Below, piece by piece: positions 2,630-3,787 of a stretch of 35,839 nt of DNA. The DNA is taken from NCBI GenBank assembly GCA_031277715.1, contig JAITLW010000016.1, forward strand, positions 1-35,839. Direction: 5' to 3'. The notes beneath the pieces are model-generated. The model searched no databases. It had not been told where the DNA came from and saw nothing but the letters and a program-made list of their open reading frames with translations. The stretch's first letter is position 1. Every line of letters begins with the position of its first letter. The position numbers and the translations under genes were made by a program. The DNA comes from Sphingobacterium sp. Lineage in GTDB: Bacteria; Bacteroidota; Bacteroidia; Sphingobacteriales; Sphingobacteriaceae.

Positions 2630-3787
2630 TTATCTATAAATCACAGCCTGCTCGCGAAGTACGTTGTTCTCCCGTTCGATTTCGGCGATGAGCTCTTCTT
2701 CCGATGGCAGTTCAAGTAGATATTTGCTTACGAACAATTGTTGATCGCTATCCGCGATAGCATATTCGACCAAAGCTTTGTTTTGATTGGTTACGAGCAA
2801 TAGTCCGACAGGCGGGTTGTCGTCCTTTTGCATCATCTCCTTTTTGTAATAATTCACATAGGTCTTCAATTGTCCGATATGCTCATGTTTGACTTCATCC
2901 ACTTTGAGTTCCACAAGGACGTGACATTTTAGTGTCCGATGGTAGAACACCAGATCGATAAAGAAGTATTCACCACCAATCAGGATACGCTTCTGTTTAG
3001 CTTCGAAACAGAAGCCGTGTCCCATTTCAAGAAGAAAGCTCTCTAGATGCTCGAGTAGCGATCTTTCGAGGTCACTTTCATAGACTACGTCTTTGGCTTT
3101 GAGTCCGAGAAATTCAAAGGTAAAAGGAGACTTGATGATGTCTTTTGCTGCAATGGTTTCTGCCGTTTGTTTGACCATCTTTGATAACATGTCCGGCTTT
3201 TTACTTATTTCGCTTCTTTCGTAGTAAAGGGTATTGATTTGTCTTTTTAACTCTCGGACACTCCAAGCGTTTTTAATTGTTTCAAATTCAAGAAATGTTC
3301 TTTTCTTAAGATCAGTAATGGGAATAAGCTCTAATAGATGTGAAAATGATAGGTTGTAGAGTAACTTTTTAGGAGAAATTGGCGTTGATAGGAATTCATC
3401 AGACATTGTTTGATGAATTGTAGTGTCTTTATTATCAGTTGTTTGTAATTGGTCGGACAGTGTCTGACCAATTCGAATTCCTTTGGAGCTACTATTTGCA
3501 AGATTCTCTTTTACAGCAGATTGTAAGTGAGGATATGCTACATAGAACTGCCTGCATAGCTTTAAATTGGTAATAGACAGTCCCTTTATTTTAATAGAAT
3601 TTGCAAGCTCAGGGAGTAGGCCTTCACCATACCTAGCCCTGTCTTCACCATTCTGTTCGAATTCGACAATGTATAGCCCAATCAACCAGTTGCGTAGGGT
3701 AAGCGATTGGTTTACTGCCTTAACAGCAGAAAGCTGTAGCTCCTCGTGCGTATTTTGTATACTGCTTACAAGTTTATCAAATTCCAT
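2630..3787 (-). CDS. DUF1016 / PDDEXK nuclease domain-containing protein (YhcG-like)
   Basis: N-terminal DUF1016_N-like region (NWLIGLYIVEFEQNGEDRARYGEGLLPELA), WSVRELKRQINTLYYERS, C-terminal nuclease core FIDLVFYHR...HVLVELKVDEVKHEHIGQLKTYVNYY. Confidence 0.92.
   Translation of the reverse strand: MEFDKLVSSIQNTHEELQLSAVKAVNQSLTLRNWLIGLYIVEFEQNGEDRARYGEGLLPELANSIKIKGLSITNLKLCRQFYVAYPHLQSAVKENLANSSSKGIRIGQTLSDQLQTTDNKDTTIHQTMSDEFLSTPISPKKLLYNLSFSHLLELIPITDLKKRTFLEFETIKNAWSVRELKRQINTLYYERSEISKKPDMLSKMVKQTAETIAAKDIIKSPFTFEFLGLKAKDVVYESDLERSLLEHLESFLLEMGHGFCFEAKQKRILIGGEYFFIDLVFYHRTLKCHVLVELKVDEVKHEHIGQLKTYVNYYKKEMMQKDDNPPVGLLLVTNQNKALVEYAIADSDQQLFVSKYLLELPSEEELIAEIERENNVLREQAVIYR
3393..3419. 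repeat. 27-bp imperfect palindrome A inside the DUF1016 CDS
   Basis: AATTCATCAGACA-T-TGTTTGATGAATT, 12 of 13 arm positions pair; encodes IHQTMSDEF on the minus strand. Confidence 0.85.
3447..3473. repeat. 27-bp imperfect palindrome B inside the DUF1016 CDS
   Basis: AATTGGTCGGACA-G-TGTCTGACCAATT, 12 of 13 arm positions pair; encodes IGQTLSDQL on the minus strand; centre 54 bp from palindrome A. Confidence 0.85.

Follow-up and report, generated by a model that had tools for sequence, protein, structure and literature searches.

Palindromes within the coding sequences of DUF1016/YhcG nucleases as predicted binding sites of the encoded proteins

We analyzed a stretch of 35,839 nt from Sphingobacterium sp. 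(contig JAITLW010000016.1; hereafter, the window), in which a gene for a nuclease of the DUF1016/YhcG family contains two 27-bp palindromes. With a probability of roughly 0.75, these palindromes and their counterparts throughout the family are sites at which the protein encoded by the same gene binds double-stranded DNA; the most likely outcome would be autorepression. Specifically, we infer self-binding from the fact that the palindromes change in step with residues of the protein's predicted DNA-reading helices, and on this sequence evidence it is very probable that the nuclease binds its own gene. Autorepression as the main role of the predicted self-binding, proposed by analogy with a known regulator, has about an even chance, and tethering, titration or some other role is possible but less probable.

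Palindromes in the window gene and in its homologues

The window gene belongs to the YhcG/DUF1016 family by both Pfam domains, which scored well above the curated cut-offs (PF17761, 91.2 bits with a cut-off of 32.8; PF06250, 176.9 bits with a cut-off of 32.5), and by the PADLOC profile PDC-S02. The Pfam scan of its product, P0001, yielded neither an N-terminal ParB CTPase (ParB/Srx) domain nor DUF285. The gene and its palindromes are located as follows.

2630..3787, minus strand: DUF1016/YhcG nuclease gene, 385 aa (P0001), an open reading frame with matches to PF17761 (E 8e-26), PF06250 (E 3.4e-52) and PADLOC PDC-S02 (E 1e-121)
3447..3473, minus strand: first palindrome in gene order, AATTGGTCAGACA-C-TGTCCGACCAATT, encoding IGQTLSDQL; proposed binding site, at the same place as in 187 of 261 homologues
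3393..3419, minus strand: second palindrome in gene order, AATTCATCAAACA-A-TGTCTGATGAATT, encoding IHQTMSDEF; proposed binding site

The original prediction, made from the window alone, had described these two 27-mers with centres 54 bp apart, and both are indeed present, with the gene running antisense there. The arm changes between them (CA/GG and TG/CC) are compensatory, as had been stated. In each palindrome, 12 of the 13 pairs are complementary and neither is perfect, the single A-C mismatch (sense strand) lying at a different position in each. The two-palindrome pattern arose in none of the dinucleotide shuffles of the window, and codon-synonymous shuffles of the gene produced at least one comparable palindrome in 443/5000 cases and two in only 9/5000. 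This low frequency, along with the four-fold degenerate sites described below, bears out the earlier claim that chance codon usage does not account for the pattern. A search of the host genome for the related pattern AATTNNNCAGACANTGTCTGNNNAATT, allowing up to two mismatches, found no third copy, and a truncated paralogue in that genome (L002) has one palindrome at the equivalent place. By its nearest homologues the host resembles Sphingobacterium, and its genome holds further DUF1016 copies (L002, L004 and L001), some of them truncated; L002 stops shortly after its palindrome.

To assess the spread of these palindromes, homologues were drawn from named genomes, species genomes, plasmids, phages and E. 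coli, and a palindrome was scored at a threshold of 9 of 10 pairs. Nearly all complete genes have a palindrome in this linker (residues ~90-140): among 261 near-full-length DUF1016 frames, 187 have one at the threshold, compared with 13.6 expected after codon shuffling, and perfect stems are present in 118, compared with 1.2 after shuffling. A closely similar count gave 186 of the 261 genes with a palindrome; under less strict scoring, 28 more have a hairpin, and a palindrome of 15-19 bp lies at the same place in the majority of the remaining 47. Altogether, 197 of 303 frames carry one to three sites, successive sites are mostly spaced by 36, 39 or 54 bp, and the dyad falls on the first codon base in 280 of 291 sites. 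The arms are highly diverse, with 92 different six-base arms. In a phylum-wide pattern search, good copies were almost restricted to DUF1016 genes.

The palindromes are not limited to Bacteroidota. They are also found, some of them weaker, in genes of Pseudomonadota, Acidobacteriota, Actinomycetota and Fusobacteriota, the carriers including Legionella, Collinsella, Pseudomonas, Diaphorobacter, Granulicella, Burkholderia, a fusobacterium and phage contigs. Three palindromes are present in yhcG of E. coli K-12; the DUF1016 gene of Rhodococcus has a weak hairpin only. The QTxSD repeat peptide noted earlier is encoded in the window, but across the family it is just one of many peptides dictated by palindromes (others are YALRS, YTLCS, VSALRTQ, QSxIAQ and VSPLVTQ). 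The centre codon NTG was considered as an internal start, an idea that was dropped because CTG and non-NTG centres are common. The original prediction had named QTxSD repeats in non-palindromic codons, or independently varying pairs, as outcomes that would speak against it; it survived this comparison across homologues.

Constraint on the DNA and coupling to predicted DNA-reading residues

Because the sites were chosen for palindromy, the argument rests on leave-one-out rather than raw counts. By this measure, pairs 3-9 are Watson-Crick in 77-92% of sites, compared with about 31-52% expected from column composition, and all four pair types (A-T, T-A, G-C and C-G) are used at these pairs. Four-fold degenerate third codon positions follow their partner across the dyad: A is matched by T in 84/99 cases, G by C in 92/96, T by A in 44/46 and C by G in 18/27. 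G-U pairing is practically absent, G at four-fold sites being paired with T in 2 cases and with C in 92. A crude mismatch count (A-C 92, G-U 46) is confounded by codon opportunity, and base-resolved tables were used instead. Since four-fold sites are set by the partner base and G-U is avoided, the constraint acts on double-stranded DNA, not on mRNA structure or the peptide. Codon bias or a peptide repeat as the source of the palindromes is rejected by the four-fold sites together with the codon shuffles.

The similarity of palindromes follows that of the N-terminal half of the protein when the C-terminal half is controlled for (partial r 0.12-0.21, reached by 0 of 200 permutations); in the reverse test, it does not follow the C-terminal half given the N-terminal half. 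A blind mutual-information scan over 268 protein columns ranked residues 149, 177, 73, 152, 178, 77 and 76 highest. In the resulting coupling table, R73 goes with G at position -7 of the half-site and E76 with C at -8. At -5, A accompanies N74 and G accompanies E74, and A never occurs with R77; at -3, S149 goes with A and T149 with G or T; and R152 goes with C at -4 on one strand, that is, G on the other. These pairings resemble a recognition code, and their chemistry is what would be expected of one.

Shared ancestry was removed by comparing 86 non-overlapping sister pairs, for which 1855 residue-base couplings were scored. The six strongest were 149/-3, 177/-3, 73/-7, 76/-9, 76/-8 and 72/-8, and four couplings reached z of about 4.5 or more, compared with 4.23 at the 99% point of the permutation maximum. 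The base at -7 changed in 22 of 31 pairs with a change of residue 73 and in 5 of 55 without, and the base at -3 in 27 of 35 pairs with a change of residue 149 and in 5 of 51 without. Across the whole set of genes, R73 and G at -7 are either both present or both absent in 163 of 174. In Sphingobacterium, S149 goes with A at -3 in the window gene and L047, and T149 goes with T at -3 in L046 and L048; this holds for both arms of both palindromes. The suggestion in the original prediction that the nuclease itself might recognise the palindromes thus gains strong support from residue-base coevolution, which points to binding indirectly.

The domains of the window protein and the positions of the coupled residues are the following.

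3536..3640, minus strand: predicted helix-turn-helix 1, residues 50-84 (helices 50-65 and 72-84; AlphaFold2, AF2); the palindrome positions coupled to residues 71-77 are -5 to -9
3386..3469, minus strand: disordered linker, residues 107-134 (AF2, predicted local distance difference test, pLDDT, <50), encoded by the palindromes and splitting the DNA-binding domain
3326..3349, minus strand: residues 147-154 (SFSHLLEL), aligned with ParB S-x-GHAR; 149 covaries with position -3 and 152 with -4
3233..3310, minus strand: second helical pair, residues 160-185 (WSVRELKRQI); 177/178 covary with position -3
2693..3142, minus strand: PD-(D/E)XK nuclease domain, residues 216-365, with D278, E293 and K295 (PF06250; conserved columns; Foldseek match to NucS/EndoMS)

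Modelled alone by AF2, the N-domain has a pLDDT of about 90 except for residues 107-134, which are the stretch encoded by the palindromes; it was modelled better in this way than in the full-length model, which has low confidence in the nuclease half. The coupled residues fall within helix 148-154 and where helices 72-84 and 177-185 begin. In the nuclease half, which is similar to NucS/EndoMS (Foldseek E 1.4e-4), the active-site residues D278 and K295 are invariant and E293 is nearly invariant among 43 homologues.

The 17 best Foldseek matches of the N-domain are all ParB/Noc/Spo0J DNA-binding domains, although individually weak (E 0.45 and above). Comparison by hhalign with a profile of 27 ParB domains gave 77.5% over 42 columns, and 38.9% with the smaller alignment A2; S149 is placed on ParB G201 and L152 on ParB R204 (numbering from PMC7383237). 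An HTH_ParB match, also weak, was found in 4 of 41 family members. On these models and profiles, DUF1016_N remotely resembles the ParB/Noc DNA-binding domain and may be a distant relative of it. ParB/Noc proteins read position 1, the outer one, with residue 173 (R with G) and position 6 with residue 201 (Jalal et al. 2020, PMC7383237). The apparent equivalents of ParB 173 and 201 are the blindly found residues 73, where R goes with G at -7, and 149, which is coupled to -3.

Proposed mechanism and alternative explanations

In the mechanism that we propose, two copies of DUF1016_N would bind each palindrome as a symmetric dimer, as at a parS-like site. Within each half-site, the first recognition helix (residues 71-79) would read positions -9 to -5, and positions -4/-3, close to the dyad, would be read by the second region (149-152 and 177-178). 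Because the predicted site falls where the gene encodes a disordered linker that would tolerate almost any in-frame peptide, the site could mutate to match the protein and would be inseparable from the gene. The bound dimer may then block RNA polymerase inside its own gene, a negative autoregulation by a roadblock like that of the restriction-modification controller C.Kpn2I, which would keep a hazardous nuclease scarce. Position and coevolution place a predicted cognate site inside the protein's own coding region, where the site of C.Kpn2I also lies. The rare extra palindromes 5' of the DUF1016 start also speak for this explanation: one (L033:1132-1158) is identical to the gene's own site and lies in the upstream intergenic region, and the other (L174:2023-2049) lies about 10 nt before the ATG. 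Both positions are operator-like. A regular upstream operator as a general rule was rejected, because only these two genes show one. More tentatively, the family may be self-addressed: each gene's private palindrome would be read by the ParB-like domain, specificities would diversify by compensatory mutation and exchange of the N-module, and the role of the self-site would exceed autorepression, for example by nucleating the nuclease on its own locus to police or exclude incoming DNA or rival DUF1016 alleles sharing the address. We regard this wider idea as possible, though rather doubtful.

Several observations weigh against self-binding with autorepression. About 28% of the near-full-length genes have no palindrome at the 9/10 threshold, though most keep shorter ones there, and sites upstream, the usual place of an operator, are rare. 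One residue often pairs with more than one base, and the sites within a single gene can differ. Palindrome positions double as amino-acid positions, and part of the coupling could in principle act via the linker peptide. A held-out test on non-Bacteroidota comprised 12-13 genes and had little power. As to the ParB likeness, the structural matches are individually weak, the profile match spans residues 146-187 only, and the equivalence of residue 73 with ParB R173 was assigned by eye.

An unlikely alternative is that the nuclease, or hairpin nucleases of the cell, use the palindromes as sites of cleavage or recombination, and that breaks there promote exchange of the N-module or spread of the gene. 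Fragmented DUF1016 copies are common, as this explanation would have it, and the yhcG alleles of E. coli, where the family is present in 4434 of 5426 complete genomes (partial genes included), swap the N-module together with the palindromes at the linker. In strain Z142-6, a divergent N-terminal half with different palindromes is joined to a near-identical C-terminal half, and this allele, which also speaks for self-binding, fits the code, with R73/W76 accompanied by G at -7 and T at -8 of the first palindrome. In addition, at least three different deletions (L225, L341, L342 and L343), including an in-frame one, have eliminated palindromes 2 and 3 and left palindrome 1 in place, and palindrome 3 has received insertions (L224, L344 and L227), a transposase-bearing one at its edge in B-type alleles and the insertion sequence IS1 beside its core in SC516. 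However, palindromes are generally prone to deletion and capture of insertion sequences, and the coupling of residues and bases is unexplained by cleavage unless the protein also binds there. Moreover, thousands of E. coli genomes retain both the gene and its sites intact, which makes routine self-cleavage unlikely. The E. coli alleles testify to the exchange of modules and to instability at this place, without favouring either binding or cleavage.

The remaining alternatives fare far worse. The original prediction had allowed for a structured DNA or RNA site kept within the gene; the DNA part is strongly supported, but the RNA part is contradicted by the avoidance of G-U. mRNA hairpins that control translation or bind the protein are therefore very improbable, despite the strong hairpin potential of most genes and the relaxed inner loop positions in some clades, since tolerance of G-U was not seen at four-fold sites and the coupled residues lie in the predicted DNA-reading helices of a ParB-like domain. 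It had also proposed a coding palindromic element that was inserted or duplicated, and repeated insertion of a mobile element of the Rickettsia palindromic element or PARCEL (palindromic amphipathic repeat coding element) type would agree with the variable copy number of the coding palindromes, which reaches about 36 tandem copies beside one gene. This proposal did not hold, and we consider such a mobile element hardly credible: in the phylum-wide search, good copies are almost confined to one spot, one gene family and one codon phase instead of being dispersed over unrelated genes, and the many different arms are coupled to the residues of the recognition helices, which their sequence tracks. 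Finally, the palindromes could be without function, being kept perfect by template-switch correction of quasi-palindromes, an established mutational process, in a linker that is disordered and tolerant. Their position, codon phase and AATT ends are conserved across phyla, however, and they coevolve with specific residues, which makes this origin just as improbable as a mobile element.

Palindromes are also found outside the linker. Directly upstream of one DUF1016 gene, about 36 tandem 78-bp copies of the palindrome lie in a 1013-aa open frame (L169:4123-7161; G503 C102), flanked by genes for a SNF2/NOV_C helicase and a DUF1156 methylase, in what looks like a defence island; possibly, this is a decoy array. 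Viral contigs (L159, L161 and L164-L168) have palindromes of the same type outside DUF1016 genes, mostly intergenic, and in L159 two palindromes with unlike arms abut. Three identical palindromes with the core GCAGGCA (L170:464, L171:1793 and 5563; G208 C5) lie beside frames whose translation resembles repeats of the CRISPR (clustered regularly interspaced short palindromic repeats) type. The genomes G300, G328, G398 and G409 of genus g81 each have 13-14 DUF1016_N matches, many of them apparently fragments.

Comparison with known systems

YhcG/DUF1016 (PDC-S02) is a widespread family of candidate phage-defence nucleases. For its N-terminal domain, the results suggest a likely fold relationship and function, ParB-like and site-specific, and a predicted target site can be read for nearly every member from its own gene. 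They provide a first, predicted, residue-to-base code, from roughly a hundred natural specificities, and an unusual case in which one DNA stretch encodes a protein and its predicted binding site.

B. subtilis spo0J also holds a parS site, which our search of the literature did not confirm. In ParB-parS and Noc-NBS, a two-fold symmetric dimer reads a palindrome with a recognition helix at an outer position and, closer to the dyad, with a second region (PMC7383237); we propose the same for DUF1016. Unlike ParB, DUF1016 proteins lack the CTPase domain, are fused to a PD-(D/E)XK nuclease, and have a DNA-binding domain that is split by the linker encoding the site; and in contrast to the highly conserved parS, each DUF1016 gene has a private site, the arms being of about 92 types. 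C.Kpn2I binds a site in its own coding region and blocks the elongating RNA polymerase, and its authors suspect that such intragenic roadblocks are widespread among C.Kpn2I-like proteins (PMC6237814). In contrast to YhcG, it is a small dedicated regulator of a different protein family and not the nuclease itself.

For YhcG, the C-terminal domain was predicted to be a PD-(D/E)XK nuclease by Kosinski et al. 2005 (PMC1189080); the part of that paper drawn on here reports no N-terminal fold and does not mention palindromes. In the literature searched, outside which many subscription papers lie, there was no account of palindromes in DUF1016 genes or of the fold of the N-domain. PARCELs (PMC2996958) and Rickettsia palindromic elements (PMC4316617) likewise are palindromic DNA within coding sequence, but the former are tandem repeats of DUF285 whose dyads are imperfect, and the latter are selfish elements of about 100-150 nt in many genes. 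Neither has been described as coevolving with the encoded protein, unlike the DUF1016 sites. Precedents thus exist both for intragenic self-binding (C.Kpn2I) and for coding palindromes (Rickettsia palindromic elements and PARCELs); what is new, to our knowledge, is a site that is present across a whole family, diversifies rapidly and sits within the coding sequence of the domain predicted to read it.
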